DNA of 64,000 nucleotides from Gracilimonas sp. (GTDB lineage Bacteria > Bacteroidota > Rhodothermia > Balneolales > Balneolaceae): positions 1 through 64,000 of the forward strand of contig NZ_JAVJQO010000007.1 of the NCBI RefSeq assembly GCF_040218225.1, read 5' to 3'. The notes under the pieces were generated by a model that was given only the letters and a program-made list of their open reading frames with translations, had not been told where the DNA came from and ran no database searches. Shown one piece after another: positions 38,826 through 46,005 of this stretch (the stretch's first letter is position 1; each line of letters starts with the position of its first letter). Both the position numbers and the translations under genes were made by a program.

Positions 38826-41123
38826 TTAATCAATACCGGTTTTAATCGACAGATATGGCAATAGAGGTGTTTGATTTACCCGCTGAAGGGTGTTTAAATC
38901 GAAGCTGAAAATATTATCTCTGTCATAAGCATTTATTATTCCTATTTCACTTTCAATAAACCAATCATCAAATTCAAAACTCCGATTCACAGACACATCA
39001 AGCCTGTGGTAATAGGGAAGTCTGGCTCCAAATGGCCTTGTATAATAGACATTCCCAATTCCAGTATTTTCAGTAACATCTTGAAAAGGTACTCGCACGG
39101 CCAGATCATAGCCAAAAACACGCGTAAATGGTTGCCCACTCCCCAACTCCCAGCGTAAATTTGTAGTAAAACCGGCAATTTTGTAGCTAAAAATTGCATT
39201 CAGCTTATGTCTTTGGTCATGTGCCGGAGAATAACTGAATATAGTTTCATTCACCCAAGCTCCAAGATCTCCAGAGTCTGCTTCATATTTAATTTTAGAC
39301 CATCCATACCCTAGTGAAGCATAAAATGCACTTTTAGCGTACTTAACTCGAACGTCAAACCCATAAGAAGAGCTATTTGCCAGAGCTGTCTGAAGAGCAA
39401 TTCTAGCCACCGGAGTCCATGTAGAAACCGGGATATTCCGCCCCCCTTTAGTGTATGCCTCAATATTAGCCACAAAAGACTTCCCCCACCTCTGTTGATA
39501 TCCAAATATAGCATGATCAGAAGTTTGTAATGGGTCTCCTCGCTCCGCCGGTCTGATGATAGTAAAAACCGAACCTACATCCCGTTGATCACTAACCCCT
39601 GTAGTAAGCTGAACATAACGGCCCAGCGCCAAACTTAGCTCCTGACTGTCTGTTCCATCGGGCCGGAACGAGGCCCGGAATCTTGGTTCAAAGCTGAATG
39701 GAGTATCCAAAGATGCCTGAGAGGCAATACCCGGCTTAATTGAGATATACTTGTTCGGGTCCCAATCTCCCGAAAAAAACAAATTAACTGTAGGAGACAA
39801 ATAATCAATTTCAGCTATCGAAGTGAATTTCTCATCCAATTCAACTTCATACGACCTGAAATTAATACCAAACCCATAATTAAAGAGCACACCGAATAAC
39901 TCTTGCTGGAAATCCGTATTCATATAAAACTGATTCACCTCAGAATAACGTTCTACATTCTCTTCCGTACCTTCCTGATTGGTATAACTGGTATAGCCTG
40001 CGGTAAACTCGATGGGATATTCAAAATTCGGATCAAAGCCGAAACAGCGCGTTCCAATCACTTTGTTAGACCACGAGTGCCGAACTTCATTATAGGGTAC
40101 AATTTCACCTTCATCCTGAGTATAAACACCTGTCACGCTGCAGAGGGCATTTTGAAGCTGCAAGGTATATCGCCCTAAAACATCGCTAAATCTAAGTGGT
40201 ACGCTTTCTCCAATAAGCTCTGGTGAAATACTCTCTATGGTTGACTTCCTCGCCATTACTAAAAGTGACTGCTGGTCTTTTACAAGTGGGCCTTCCACCA
40301 ATATTGAGGTCAGATATGGACTTACTGACCCACTTGCTCCAAACCTCTTCATATTGCCCGGTCGCAGGTTGATATCAATAACAGCAGATGTAATTCCTGA
40401 ATACTCTGCACCAAACCCACCAGCATACATATCCACGTTTTGGACAATCTCTTCTGAAAAAGCAGAATACAGATTTGAAATGTGAAAGGGTTTCACAATC
40501 AATAGATTATCCACTAGAATTTGATTCTGGACCGGAGTTCCTCCCCTCACAAACAGATCTCCTCCCCGGTCACCTGTTGTAATCACTCCTGGTTCAACTT
40601 GAAGATAAGAACCTAAATCGCCATCAACGCCGGGTGTTGGTACACGAGCAATATCGATATCTGAAACCCTGCGAATACCTGCCTGTCCAGATCTTGCCAG
40701 GCGTTGCCCTTCTACTGTTACCTCATCTAGTTCGCCTGCCTTCTGCTTTAACGAAACTCTGATGTTTTCCCGGAAACCTTGTACAACGTTAATTCTTTTT
40801 TGAAAGAGTTCATATCCTATATAGCTAATCTCTAATTGATAAGATCTTCCTGTTATCACTTTTCTGATCTCACAAAACCCATCTGTGTTAGTTACACAAT
40901 TATATAATATTTCCTCTTTTTCGATGTCATAAATAATAACATTTGCCCCTATTAACGGACTCCCGTCTACTTCAGAGATTACAACTGCCTGCACGATTGT
41001 TGTATTTTGATTCTGTGCGGTAACCGTCAGGTTTAATGAAAAAAGAGCTAACATAAGTGCAAAACACCTGCTATTACAGAATGTGTTTAGCCTGTTAACT
41101 TTAAATAGGTCTGTTAAAATCAT
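38826..41123 (-). CDS. TonB-dependent receptor with carboxypeptidase-regulatory domain
   Basis: 765 residues. Signal peptide to about residue 37 (ending TVTAQ), carboxypeptidase-regulatory-like domain (VISEVDGSPLIGANVI), plug (GDLGSYLQVEPGVITTGDRGGDLFVRGG) and barrel to the C-terminus. Its ATG overlaps the stop of the DUF4249-like lipoprotein by four bases (ATGA), so the two are translationally coupled. This pairing is common in Bacteroidota and probably imports one ligand, unknown here. Confidence 0.87.
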   Translation of the reverse strand: MILTDLFKVNRLNTFCNSRCFALMLALFSLNLTVTAQNQNTTIVQAVVISEVDGSPLIGANVIIYDIEKEEILYNCVTNTDGFCEIRKVITGRSYQLEISYIGYELFQKRINVVQGFRENIRVSLKQKAGELDEVTVEGQRLARSGQAGIRRVSDIDIARVPTPGVDGDLGSYLQVEPGVITTGDRGGDLFVRGGTPVQNQILVDNLLIVKPFHISNLYSAFSEEIVQNVDMYAGGFGAEYSGITSAVIDINLRPGNMKRFGASGSVSPYLTSILVEGPLVKDQQSLLVMARKSTIESISPELIGESVPLRFSDVLGRYTLQLQNALCSVTGVYTQDEGEIVPYNEVRHSWSNKVIGTRCFGFDPNFEYPIEFTAGYTSYTNQEGTEENVERYSEVNQFYMNTDFQQELFGVLFNYGFGINFRSYEVELDEKFTSIAEIDYLSPTVNLFFSGDWDPNKYISIKPGIASQASLDTPFSFEPRFRASFRPDGTDSQELSLALGRYVQLTTGVSDQRDVGSVFTIIRPAERGDPLQTSDHAIFGYQQRWGKSFVANIEAYTKGGRNIPVSTWTPVARIALQTALANSSSYGFDVRVKYAKSAFYASLGYGWSKIKYEADSGDLGAWVNETIFSYSPAHDQRHKLNAIFSYKIAGFTTNLRWELGSGQPFTRVFGYDLAVRVPFQDVTENTGIGNVYYTRPFGARLPYYHRLDVSVNRSFEFDDWFIESEIGIINAYDRDNIFSFDLNTLQRVNQTPLLPYLSIKTGID

Positions 41124-41929
41124 TCCGGAAAAGAAAGTTTGGTTGCTAAAGTATCCTGATAATAACTGCCAAAGCGCTTTGAAGTCTCCAGAATGTCAAA
41201 AGACTCAACAAAGAGTTTCTCATAAAAACCCGGGCCGTAATGAGAAATACTCACCAAATACTCCTCTCCATTTATGTCTTCACAGGTTACCTCGTCCTCA
41301 AAGTTCGCTGGGATACCTCCCAAAAGCCCCCCGGGGTTATAGGTGATCTCATATTCGTTATTCGCACCTTCATTAGTAACCCTGAACACATCTGGTTCCA
41401 TCCAGTATCTACCCCTGAAAGGCACACCAATACTCACCGTTACTGTTCCTGTCTGAACGTTACTAAGGGTAATGGTTACCGGAGTAAAGCAACTATTTAC
41501 TTCAGGTGTCACTTCAAAGACGGCTTTGTTTGGGGAAGTCATATCCAGCACGACCTGCCGCCCGTCAGAGCGGGTCACATAAATTCGGTAATCATTATCG
41601 GGAACTATAGATTGGGTAACCTCAAAATTATGCACATATACCCCATCAGCCTCTTTCCTGATACTCGTTAATGTTTCTGAAAATCCAGAATTTATGTTTT
41701 CAAGAACAACTTCAGCATCAAGTTCTTCGGTTGCTTCAAGGGTAAAAGGTGCATTTAAATCACGCACACGAATATAATTTACCTGAGCATCTATATCGAT
41801 TGCACCATAAATCGAAAATATCCCCAGGTCTTTATCAACCGGATCAACGGAATTATCGCACGCTCCAAATGAGATCAACAGGAGTACAGAGAGTAAAAAC
41901 TTTAGTCTGCAAAAATTTCTTTTCGTCAT
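41120..41929 (-). CDS. DUF4249-like lipoprotein partnered with a TonB receptor
   Basis: About 269 residues from ATG at 41929 (an in-frame ATG at 41956 would add nine residues before the signal). The signal ends in the lipobox LLISFGAC, then DNSVDPVDKD, so it is probably a surface lipoprotein. The rest is beta-rich; FSIYGAIDIDAQVNYIRVRDL and the two conserved cysteines near 165 and 235 match the DUF4249 style. It overlaps the downstream TonB receptor by 4 bp. Likely a ligand-capture partner of that receptor. Confidence 0.72.
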   Translation of the reverse strand: MTKRNFCRLKFLLSVLLLISFGACDNSVDPVDKDLGIFSIYGAIDIDAQVNYIRVRDLNAPFTLEATEELDAEVVLENINSGFSETLTSIRKEADGVYVHNFEVTQSIVPDNDYRIYVTRSDGRQVVLDMTSPNKAVFEVTPEVNSCFTPVTITLSNVQTGTVTVSIGVPFRGRYWMEPDVFRVTNEGANNEYEITYNPGGLLGGIPANFEDEVTCEDINGEEYLVSISHYGPGFYEKLFVESFDILETSKRFGSYYQDTLATKLSFPE

Positions 41930-42105
41930 TGTTAAGGATTTGAAAACATTTTCCACAATTTATGTGTATAGGTTATAACCGATAATAAACAAGCATTTTA
42001 GTTTTGTATTTTAATCAGAAGCTACATCTTGAAATGCGTATTTATTAAGGTTAACACAAATTGACTCTTAGTTCTAGTTAAACTAAAAAATTACCGCGCC
42101 AACTT

Positions 42106-43011: not shown

Positions 43012-46005
43012 ATGAAAAGACCTCTTTCTATAGTACTTCTTCTTTTAATTACCTTTGTGCCTGCACATGCCCAAATTAAGATCAATGAAATCGTTGCATC
43101 CAATGGCTCCTCACATGCCGATGAAAATGAAGAAAACGATGACTGGGTAGAAATCTATAATGCGGGATCAGTATCCATTAATTTTGGTGGGATGTATGTC
43201 TCTGATGATCCTGAGGAAATTGACAAGTGGCAAATTCCGACTAACCAAGCTGCAAGCACAACTATTGCCCCCGGCGAATATCTTATTCTTTGGTTTGATG
43301 AGGATACCGACCAGGGTCCTTTGCACGTAGACACCAAACTAAGCGCGGGCGGAGAGTTTGTAATCCTAACTGATAAAGATGGTTCTACACGAATTGACTC
43401 AGTCTCTTTTGGAGAACAAACCGAAGATGTTTCCTGGGGAAGAACTCCGGATGGAACCGGAACCTTTAAATTCCTGAACCCAACTCCTGCTGCAAGCAAC
43501 AACGGAAGCCAGATTGAGGAACAGGCAGATACACCAACTTTTTCTTTGGAATCCGGATTCTACGCAGGTTCACAGGTTATAGGTATTTCTGCCTCCTCAG
43601 AAAATGCCGAGATCAGATACACCACCGGAGGTGCTGTTCCGACCGAAAGCTCAACCCTTTATGAAGGCCCAATCACCATCGACACATCATCAGTGATTAG
43701 AGCAATTGCTATTGAATCTGGATTGGCAGCCAGCCCTGTTGCTACCAATAGCTACTTTTTTGAAGATCCACACACCATCCCCGTTGTCTCTTTTGTGATG
43801 GAACCGGACAGCCTGTTTGATTACGAAAAAGGAATGTATGCGATTGGCGATACCGCTGAAACCACCGGCAGCTTCCCTTATTTTGGGGCAAATTATTATC
43901 AGGAGTGGGAATACCCCGTACACCTGGAATACATTGCAGAAAGCGGAGCTATTGAATTCGAATTTGATGCGGGAGCAAGCATAGCTGGTAATTTCAGTCG
44001 CGGTTTTCACAAAAAGTCGTTCACCATTAACAATAATGCGGAATATGGCGTTGATGAATTAGAGTATGAACTTTTTCCTCAAAATGACTACGACAAATAC
44101 GACGGATTTCAGTTACGCGCCGGAGCCGAAGAGCGCTCCCGACTGCTAAATGAATTGATGTACACCATCAACCTGCAATGGAATCATAAAAATGCCATGC
44201 AGGCCTATGAGCCTGTCATCCTGTATATTAACGGGAAGTACTGGGGAATTTATAATTTACAGGAGCGTAAAAGTGATGATTTTGTAGAATCGCGTTATGG
44301 CTATAATGACATAGACATGATCAAAGATTATGATGAAGTTAAAGATGGAAATTATGATGCTTACGAAGACTTACTGAATATTTTTCAGGATGAATCCCTT
44401 TCTGAGCCTGAGTTTTTCACTTTGGCCGATTCGCTGATTGATCTGGAAAGCTTCACCGATCATTGGATTTACCAGGTGTATACTTCGCATGGCGATCCCA
44501 ATAATCTGCGATACTGGAGGCCTCAGGAAATGGGCGGGAAATGGCATTATGTTTCCCATGATTTCGACTGGTGGAGGAATCTCGACAATGAACCCGGAAC
44601 TTACCTGCCGGTTTTTACTAATTATCTGAGCGAGGAACCGGCTGGTTTTTGGCTCATTGGGCGCATGATCCAAAACCCGACATACAGAGAAATTTTCCTG
44701 AACCGGTTGGCTGATATGCTGAATACCGCTTTTAAACCTGATTATGTGATCGGCTTAATCGACTCCATCGACACGGCCATCAACCCGGAAATGTCCCGCG
44801 ATATTGAGCGATGGAATGATGGATGGGAAACCATCAGTGGTAAAAACCGGGAATACAGTATGGAGTATTTTTACTACGGTCTTGGCGAAGCAGATTATGG
44901 TCTGGCTGTGCCTTATGTACTGGATTATCCGGGGCATATTTATGCTGAAATTCAGGACACACTGAATACCGATACGGTTCGGGTTACATTGGTGCAATCT
45001 ACAGAAGCTAATGTTCAGCTCAATTCCATCAGCCCGGACATTTCTGAAGAAAACTGGTCGGGTCTTTATTTTGAAAATACTTCTATAACCCTGCAAGCCA
45101 ACCCTAATTTGGGGCTTGAGCTGGAAGCATGGCTTGTTGATGGAGAAGTAGCCGGAACGGGCAATCAGCTTTCTCTTGAACTTGGCACTGCTCCTGTTGA
45201 GATAGAAGCCAGTTTCCGAGAGATTCAAAATGATGAAATTGTGATTAACGAGATCAATTATAACTCCAGCGATGATGCAGAAGCAGGAGATTGGATTGAG
45301 CTCTATAATTATTCTTCAAATGCCATTGACGTTTCTGGCTGGATATATAAAGACGAAGATGATACCCACGAGTTTGTAATTCCGTCAGGCGTCACTATTG
45401 CCGCAAATGGATATTTAGTGCTTTCGAACGACACCACCGCTTTCAGGGAAATTCACTCCGAAGCTACTTTCGTTAAAGGTGAAGTTGATTTTGGATTGGC
45501 CGGGGGAAGCGACCAGGTTCGGATTTACAATTCCAGTGGTTCTCTCATTGATACGGTTGAATATGACGACGAGTCACCCTGGCCAACCGAACCTGATGGG
45601 AATGGATATACACTGTCACTTAAAAACTTTGATCTGGATAACACTCTCGCAGCAAGTTGGGAAGCCTCTTCAGAACCGGGTGGAACTCCGGGTGCTTCCA
45701 ATGATGGTCTTATAAATAGCATAGAAGATGATGAACTTCCTAAAGCTTTCTCACTCAATCAGAATTACCCGAACCCATTCAACCCGACAACCAACATATC
45801 TTTTAATTTGACGAATGCCGGGAAGGTGACACTAAGCGTGTATAATATGCTTGGGCAGGAAGTCCAGAAATTGGTGAATGAGCCCATGAACAGCGGAGCA
45901 CATACCATTACTTTTGATGCCAAGCAGTTACCAAGTGGGGTCTACATCTATCGCCTGACATCCGGCAAGATGTCTGAAACCAAAAAAATGATCCTGCTGA
46001 AATAA
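43012..46005 (+). CDS. Secreted modular CotH-kinase-like protein with lamin-tail domains and type IX sorting domain
   Basis: 997 residues. Signal peptide (1-20), lamin-tail domain (about 22-165, KINEIVASNGSSHADENEEND), a chitobiase/hexosaminidase C-type domain (about 180-260), a CotH-like atypical protein-kinase domain (about 265-610, with HYVSHDFDWWRN), a second lamin-tail domain (about 745-880, EIVINEINYNSSDDA) and a C-terminal sorting domain beginning SLNQNYPNPFNPTT. It should be exported by Sec, then by the type IX system, and be cell-surface bound or released. CotH kinases phosphorylate proteins in spore coats; the target here is unknown. Confidence 0.9.
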   Translation: MKRPLSIVLLLLITFVPAHAQIKINEIVASNGSSHADENEENDDWVEIYNAGSVSINFGGMYVSDDPEEIDKWQIPTNQAASTTIAPGEYLILWFDEDTDQGPLHVDTKLSAGGEFVILTDKDGSTRIDSVSFGEQTEDVSWGRTPDGTGTFKFLNPTPAASNNGSQIEEQADTPTFSLESGFYAGSQVIGISASSENAEIRYTTGGAVPTESSTLYEGPITIDTSSVIRAIAIESGLAASPVATNSYFFEDPHTIPVVSFVMEPDSLFDYEKGMYAIGDTAETTGSFPYFGANYYQEWEYPVHLEYIAESGAIEFEFDAGASIAGNFSRGFHKKSFTINNNAEYGVDELEYELFPQNDYDKYDGFQLRAGAEERSRLLNELMYTINLQWNHKNAMQAYEPVILYINGKYWGIYNLQERKSDDFVESRYGYNDIDMIKDYDEVKDGNYDAYEDLLNIFQDESLSEPEFFTLADSLIDLESFTDHWIYQVYTSHGDPNNLRYWRPQEMGGKWHYVSHDFDWWRNLDNEPGTYLPVFTNYLSEEPAGFWLIGRMIQNPTYREIFLNRLADMLNTAFKPDYVIGLIDSIDTAINPEMSRDIERWNDGWETISGKNREYSMEYFYYGLGEADYGLAVPYVLDYPGHIYAEIQDTLNTDTVRVTLVQSTEANVQLNSISPDISEENWSGLYFENTSITLQANPNLGLELEAWLVDGEVAGTGNQLSLELGTAPVEIEASFREIQNDEIVINEINYNSSDDAEAGDWIELYNYSSNAIDVSGWIYKDEDDTHEFVIPSGVTIAANGYLVLSNDTTAFREIHSEATFVKGEVDFGLAGGSDQVRIYNSSGSLIDTVEYDDESPWPTEPDGNGYTLSLKNFDLDNTLAASWEASSEPGGTPGASNDGLINSIEDDELPKAFSLNQNYPNPFNPTTNISFNLTNAGKVTLSVYNMLGQEVQKLVNEPMNSGAHTITFDAKQLPSGVYIYRLTSGKMSETKKMILLK

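Follow-up and report, generated by a model that had tools for sequence, protein, structure and literature searches.

The closest described system to the protein analysed here is Bacillus CotH (structures 5jd9 and 5jda, family PF08757), a spore-coat protein. In one study, the characterised CotH has proteins as its substrate, the B. subtilis variants D228Q and D251A are inactive, and Fam20C, which like the candidate exported kinase considered below is secreted and has an atypical fold, is described as a distant relative of CotH (PMC7821199); a Fam20 review does not mention CotH (PMC7948968). CotH proteins also occur in other settings. The cellulosomal protein Cthe_0239 of Clostridium thermocellum, in print since 2018, consists of two lamin-tail domains (LTDs), an Fn3 and a CotH domain, in that order (PMC6083626). 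A 2025 review describes the role of cellulosomal CotH as not clear, possibly structural and also regulatory through kinase activity, and cites work from 2023 in which CotH kinases from fungal cellulosomes were expressed and characterised (PMC12484212). The CotH proteins of Mucor (Mucorales) are predicted to be predominantly extracellular, and a motif of R. delemar CotH2/CotH3 is described as a ligand of a host receptor (PMC9973265). In certain streptococci and clostridia, CotH genes adjoin the operon for the polysaccharide Pel (PMC7112168), an SH3-CotH protein is found in a stalk-forming group (PMC8250860), and in a survey of the Legionella kinome, four families that group with FAM20/CotH are suggested to phosphorylate lipids (PMC9758233). 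The preliminary description of the present locus had expected extracellular protein phosphorylation via type IX secretion to be a little-described activity. It overstated how unusual the arrangement is, since the union of LTD and CotH is in print for the cellulosomal protein and extracellular CotH has been reported in cellulosomes and predicted in the Mucorales. In the literature covered, which takes in few subscription journals, nothing was found that joins CotH to type IX secretion (T9SS) in the sense of this protein, and the titles and abstract openings among the matches listed for CotH and extracellular phosphorylation name no bacterial CotH. A match retrieved for CotH and type IX secretion concerns Rhizopus peptides.

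The gene under study occupies positions 43012-46005 on the forward strand of the window, the whole 64,000-nucleotide stretch of Gracilimonas sp. DNA that was analysed; it starts with ATG and encodes a product of 997 aa. A putative Sec signal peptide (residues ~1-21, 43012..43074, +) was recognised by eye from a charged start followed by a hydrophobic run and AHAQ, and the full-length model places a helix at residues 2-14, within this segment. The first LTD (residues ~17-134, 43060..43413, +) matches PF00932 with 59.6 bits, above cut-off, and is followed by a domain resembling the C-terminal domain of chitobiase/beta-hexosaminidase (residues 180-245, 43549..43746, +; CHB_HEX_C_1, PF13290, E 1.2e-16; fold match 8ayr_A, Z 12.3). 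The CotH kinase core extends by fold over residues 255-652 (43774..44967, +; PF08757 together with a fold match to 5jd9) and contains the stretch recognised by Pfam (residues 324-603, 43981-44820, +), where PF08757 scores E 4.4e-32 and 112.3 bits (cut-off 23.8). Beyond the core lies a divergent, weakly matched InlB B-repeat-like domain (residues 683-738, 45058..45225, +; Flg_new_2, PF18998, E 0.0009, below cut-off with 19.6 vs 23.6 bits), which is beta-rich in the predicted models of both the core and the full-length protein. The LTD profile of Pfam aligns to two stretches (E 1.3e-35), the best of which is the second LTD (residues 740-851, 45229..45564, +; PF00932, with a fold match to lamin A/C, 3gef_A), and NCBIfam and Pfam agree on a C-terminal T9SS type A sorting domain (residues 919-994, 45766..45993, +; TIGR04183, E 4.7e-15; Por_Secre_tail, PF18962, E 3.4e-13, above cut-off). 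The order of modules given in the preliminary description (lamin-tail, chitobiase C-like, CotH kinase-like, lamin-tail, sorting domain) is thus borne out by the Pfam and NCBIfam matches, and every module that it listed was found; the sub-threshold Flg_new_2 stretch between the core and the second LTD had been missed. As opposed to Bacillus CotH, the CotH of the window forms a single domain within a protein that is probably secreted. This protein shares with Cthe_0239 a probable extracellular setting and the combination of CotH with lamin-tail domains and a beta module, and differs from that cellulosome component in that its CotH core has an LTD on either side and a T9SS sorting domain stands at its end (PMC6083626).

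Our preferred reading, to which we assign a probability of roughly 55%, is that the gene encodes an exported CotH-family protein kinase active on the cell surface or in the matrix. Sec would carry the protein to the periplasm and T9SS would then move it across the outer membrane, where the sorting domain may be removed or exchanged for an anchor. The lamin-tail and chitobiase-C-like beta modules would hold the CotH core at the surface or in the matrix, and the core would bind a nucleotide and transfer phosphate from it to a hydroxyl, most likely that of a Ser or Thr in a surface or secreted protein, with D495 as the putative catalytic base and N498 and D517 as candidate residues for the metal.

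Fold prediction, proposed in the preliminary description as a check on the CotH kinase-like core, was run for residues 165-740 from an alignment of 68 sequences and yielded a model with a mean pLDDT of 89.8 and a pTM of 0.89. On this model, the core has a CotH-type kinase-like fold: comparison with B. cereus CotH (5jd9, VIA-align) gives Z 32.0, with 324 of 358 residues aligned at an rmsd of 2.6 and 16% identity, and a Foldseek search, which gives E 2.0e-13 for CotH, returns two matches at E <= 0.001, both of them B. cereus CotH entries. The full-length model (pLDDT 83.1, pTM 0.69, the latter making the mutual placement of its domains unreliable) again matches 5jd9, with Z 30.9; CotH also comes first when this model is submitted to Foldseek, and the other low E-values belong mostly to long repetitive beta proteins with TM-scores of ~0.1. 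The likeness to Bacillus CotH takes in the whole core fold, the catalytic Asp, the loop Asn and the DFG-like Asp. After CotH, the kinase folds nearest the core model in VIA-align are those of PI4KII-alpha (Z 12.3), CtkA (11.1) and PI3 kinases, and Fam20C does not figure among the 50 fold matches listed, an absence that excludes nothing. This ranking allows for an enzyme that has a kinase fold yet acts on something other than protein or by a different chemistry, such as phosphorylation of glycans or lipids, AMPylation or glutamylation, and the lipid phosphorylation suggested for the four Legionella families (PMC9758233) and the CotH genes beside the Pel operon (PMC7112168) point the same way. 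We hold this to be quite unlikely, given a Z of 12 against 32 for CotH, the protein substrate described for the characterised relative (PMC7821199), and a search of the neighbourhood in which no polysaccharide operon was recognised beside the gene or its orthologs, neighbours having been compared with the window genes and not all named. The same gap between CotH (Z 32.0) and the next kinase (PI4KII-alpha, 12.3) favours a protein kinase of the CotH type, which is weakened by the 16% identity to B. cereus CotH, since members of the kinase superfamily can diverge in function.

Searches of solved structures by sequence, with the full protein and with a profile of an alignment (A1) of 24 sequences, did not find CotH, and the sequence link to the solved protein ran instead through canonical relatives, in addition to the fold matches. 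A canonical CotH of the Balneolaceae aligns with B. cereus CotH so that an Asp in the motif NFD and a DYD motif stand 23 residues apart, the same separation as between D228 and D251, and in a profile-profile alignment of the protein's own group with this canonical group (E 1.5e-20) D495 pairs with the NFD Asp and D517-F-D519 with DYD. The match obtained with a short CotH subgroup (L137) in the search for this link was marginal. Through this chain of profile alignments, D495 (44494..44496, +) is the presumptive catalytic Asp, equivalent to D228 of B. subtilis CotH, and the DFG-like motif D517-F-D519 (44560..44568, +) supplies in D517 the equivalent of D251. An alignment (A2) of the window protein with 67 of its 80 nearest relatives, from which three sequences had failed a length filter and ten, mostly of long or gappy extent, had been removed by hand and with no written criterion, has D495, D517 and the catalytic-loop Asn N498 (44503..44505, +) in 68 of 68 sequences and D519 in 67 of 68. 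R369 (44116..44118, +) and N407 are likewise invariant in the core (68/68 each), E418 (44263..44265, +) is Glu in 66 and Asp in 2, and K335 (44014..44016, +) is Lys in 59 and Arg in 9. K335 may be the nucleotide-binding Lys and E418 the Glu that pairs with it; together with R369, these candidates for ATP binding in the N-lobe are named from conservation. The columns of D495, N498, D517, R369 and N407 are also invariant in two 40-member alignments (A3 and A4, the latter matched to the key residues by residue spacing) that together take in all 80 relatives.

These counts are to be read with the way in which the relatives were gathered in mind. The 80 sequences were fetched by the patterns NG-YWG and KW...DxD, so that the conservation of D517 and D519 among them is partly conditioned, and that of D495 and N498 is not. 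In A1, which stems from a whole-genome protein search and draws its 24 sequences from the 31 loci L001 and L003-L032, N498, D517 and D519 are present in all 24 sequences and the D495 column reaches >=90%, the exception seen being L022. This lack of invariance weakens the kinase reading, as does the catalytic loop itself: Asp and Asn are three residues apart (D+3) in the window protein, two fewer than in B. cereus CotH and many relatives, where the spacing is five. A reading in which the catalytic Asp has been lost was considered here, in that the loop reads HGDPNN against NxDWPxNN in many relatives and a gapless alignment from the Asn puts a His at the Asp position. We rejected it because the family contains loops of different length (D+3, D+4, D+5 and longer), because other D+3 members occur (the Clostridia loci L050, L051, L057, L059, L095 and L103, and also L064 and L122), and because the position holds Asp in 68/68 sequences, a count that rests for D495 on the placement of gaps by the aligner. 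The alignments therefore indicate that the catalytic Asp and the DFG-like Asp are both retained in the CotH core; the preliminary description had named the loss of the catalytic Asp and of the ATP-binding residues relative to CotH as grounds for abandoning its proposal, and for the Asp no such loss is seen, since the equivalents of both D228 and D251 are kept, whereas for ATP binding there are the candidates named above from conservation. That D228Q and D251A inactivate B. subtilis CotH (PMC7821199), that D495, N498 and D517 are kept in all 68 sequences and across A3 and A4, and that the eight key residues tested, K335 among them, are all kept in 8/8 orthologs, favours a working kinase.

The strongest rival to an exported kinase is a mainly structural role, in which CotH catalysis is lost or incidental and the beta modules of a surface protein bind matrix, polysaccharide or other cells. 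The LTD and the chitobiase-C-like domain both belong to the beta modules, and a genome-wide search with the LTD profile returns 15 matches (14 above cut-off) in 8 ORFs. The second LTD superposes on the Ig fold of lamin A/C (3gef_A, Z 11.2, 109 residues aligned, rmsd 2.7; lamin range Z 10-11), being outscored by a Bacteroides DUF4876 protein (4q1z, Z 12.2), and thus has the lamin Ig fold by structure; the first LTD is assigned by profile. The partly structural role considered for cellulosomal CotH (PMC12484212) and the host-receptor ligand motif of R. delemar (PMC9973265) also favour a structural or adhesive role. Comparison of orthologs speaks to both sides. Core identity ranges from 63 to 88%, and conservation is highest in the core in five of eight comparisons; it is highest in the first LTD for L007 and L008 and in the chitobiase-like domain for L010, which supports a structural role and weakens the kinase reading. 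Core dN is 0.08-0.28 against a dS of at least 1.85 (not computable in three of the eight orthologs), so that synonymous sites are near saturation and purifying selection is established, not a precise dN/dS ratio. A scaffold would, however, hardly need the catalytic Asp, Asn and DFG-like Asp that are invariant across divergent relatives and in 8/8 orthologs, and we judge the mainly structural role to be somewhat unlikely.

The case for export of the proposed kinase rests on its genomic context. The host genome (3.54 Mb in 11 contigs, with two CotH genes) encodes SprA (1535 bits in a profile search) and a PorU-like sortase (1084 bits), the two components searched for as T9SS machinery, along with 60 T9SS sorting tails, among which that of the gene at 43012-46005 ranks first by E-value. 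The type IX secretion context assumed in the preliminary description is thus present, export is plausible, and the protein is probably secreted. The C-terminus of the full-length model resembles T9SS C-terminal domains (mirolase, Z 9.4; PorU, 9.4; NucA, 8.9), a match that is non-specific by itself because beta-sandwiches of unrelated proteins tie with them. ATP is scarce outside cells, which counts against an extracellular kinase; Fam20C, as opposed to the window protein, is eukaryotic and fed with ATP in the Golgi lumen. T9SS cargo crosses the periplasm folded, and the protein might accordingly fold and act there, or on other T9SS cargo before export, for which the 60 sorting tails offer many possible co-exported substrates. 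Nor, to our knowledge, should free ATP be expected in the periplasm, and we think such a location very unlikely; it concerns place, not chemistry, and is compatible with the other readings. For the exported kinase, a broader and still unlikely extension is that such proteins form an extracellular layer of protein phosphorylation in Balneolota and Bacteroidota, with the kinase anchored through its LTD and chitobiase-like modules beside co-exported T9SS cargo, which would be phosphorylated with ATP released into the matrix.

A contig scan confirmed at least 563 relatives, of which the nearest 80 were kept; they come from Bacteroidota, Calditrichota, Marinimicrobia, Ignavibacteria, Clostridia, Myxococcota, Verrucomicrobia, Planctomycetes and others. 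CotH is present in 80/80, CHB in 78/80, LTD in 75/80 and a T9SS tail in 41/80, fractions that describe the protein's own subfamily and not all CotH proteins, because the 80 are those nearest the query; in nine of them the ORF is cut by the contig end. The window protein has a Por_Secre_tail match, as opposed to 39 of these relatives, and lacks an extra stretch in the first LTD with which the core starts near residue 350-420, vs ~170, in about 30 of the 80. By these domain matches, the arrangement is not special; the preliminary description overstated its case in calling it unusual, and it is the common layout of the subfamily. Hence, the window protein is an intact, well-preserved member of a large, common and probably secreted CotH subfamily, and not a new kind of system. 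The phosphorylation target and ATP supply of secreted CotH kinases are accordingly a question for the whole family, and, with this layout found in many phyla, extracellular kinases would be present in many environmental bacteria should the activity prove real. With its catalytic residues and T9SS context intact, the protein makes a reasonable test case, although many of the 563 or more confirmed relatives would serve equally well and nothing favours this gene over them.

PF08757 is present in 65 of 145 genomes sampled from the class. Full-length orthologs (57-82% identity) occur in eight of 56 other genomes searched, all of the same family, and in five of ten genomes of the genus, the host included; one of the five genus genomes lacking it is only 83% complete. 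The gene is therefore not essential to the genus, and this patchy presence weakens the exported-kinase reading. All 57 genomes match the full protein somewhere, including G002, G004 and G006 of the genus, in which PF08757 was not found, so that shared tails or LTDs can produce a full-protein match where CotH is absent. Among named relatives, the nearest is a locus (L043) in a Balneolaceae MAG, with 63% identity in the best segment; it apparently lies on the same contig as the ortholog L011. Within the host genome itself, a paralog at C6:628975 (L001, 854 aa) shares with the window protein the CotH domain, an LTD, a T9SS tail, a chitobiase-like start (by eye) and the D, N and DxD residues, and differs from it in lacking the N-terminal LTD and in its longer catalytic loop (DWPANN), with 28% identity between the two in A1.

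The neighbourhoods of the eight orthologs were compared by BLAST with 15 window genes, some neighbour labels (such as DUF4249 and MnmE) being presumptive. Neither a functional operon nor a substrate-like neighbour was seen at these eight loci, which weakens the exported-kinase reading. Glycyl-tRNA synthetase adjoins the gene in six of the eight (in one case across a small ORF), a TPR protein is adjoining or one ORF away in three, and a TonB-receptor pair recurs at two; the other neighbours vary.

Within kinases, the spacing between the catalytic Asp and the Asn of the catalytic loop is usually constant. Among the CotH relatives, the alignment of 67 of them with the window protein reveals that this spacing varies: the window protein (44494-44505) conserves the two residues at D+3, a length that it shares with several Clostridia, and D+4, D+5 or longer spacings occur in other relatives. 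There is also a subgroup of short CotH proteins of 457-542 aa (loci L133, 2964-4337; L137, 3050-4501; and L138, 3715-5343), in which the active site, as read by eye, is worded differently (NxDAYRLS ... WDFN). On this reading, the position of D519, the second Asp of the DFG-like motif, may be occupied by Asn in this subgroup.

A second point of divergence lies upstream of the CotH core, which begins at about position 350-420 in some 30 of the 80 nearest relatives (of at least 563 confirmed), as opposed to about 170. In all four late-core relatives scanned with Pfam (L045, 2657-3790; L073, 2676-3770; L061, 2633-3760; L107, 2684-3760), the match to the first lamin-tail domain ends early, between positions 74 and 87 of the 109-position profile, and the sequence beyond it yields no significant Pfam match. 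Hence, about 190 aa of unnamed sequence appear to be nested inside the first lamin-tail domain of these relatives, whereas the window protein lacks such a stretch. Elsewhere in the source genome, a 1928-aa ORF (contig C6, 603043-607368) contains six consecutive lamin-tail domain matches.

The neighborhood of the gene also differs among loci. In three ortholog loci an additional ORF of about 150-170 aa, which looks like a lipoprotein, adjoins CotH (L123, 5772-6284; L124, 9135-9611; L125, 6253-6711); when the L124 copy was compared with the window by tblastn, no convincing match emerged (best E 0.33). In the window, the gene at 38829-41956 is TonB-dependent-receptor-like and carries a carboxypeptidase-regulatory-like domain (Pfam). 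An unnamed gene adjoins it on the same strand, and relatives of both genes lie near the ortholog in two of the eight loci compared (L123 and L124).
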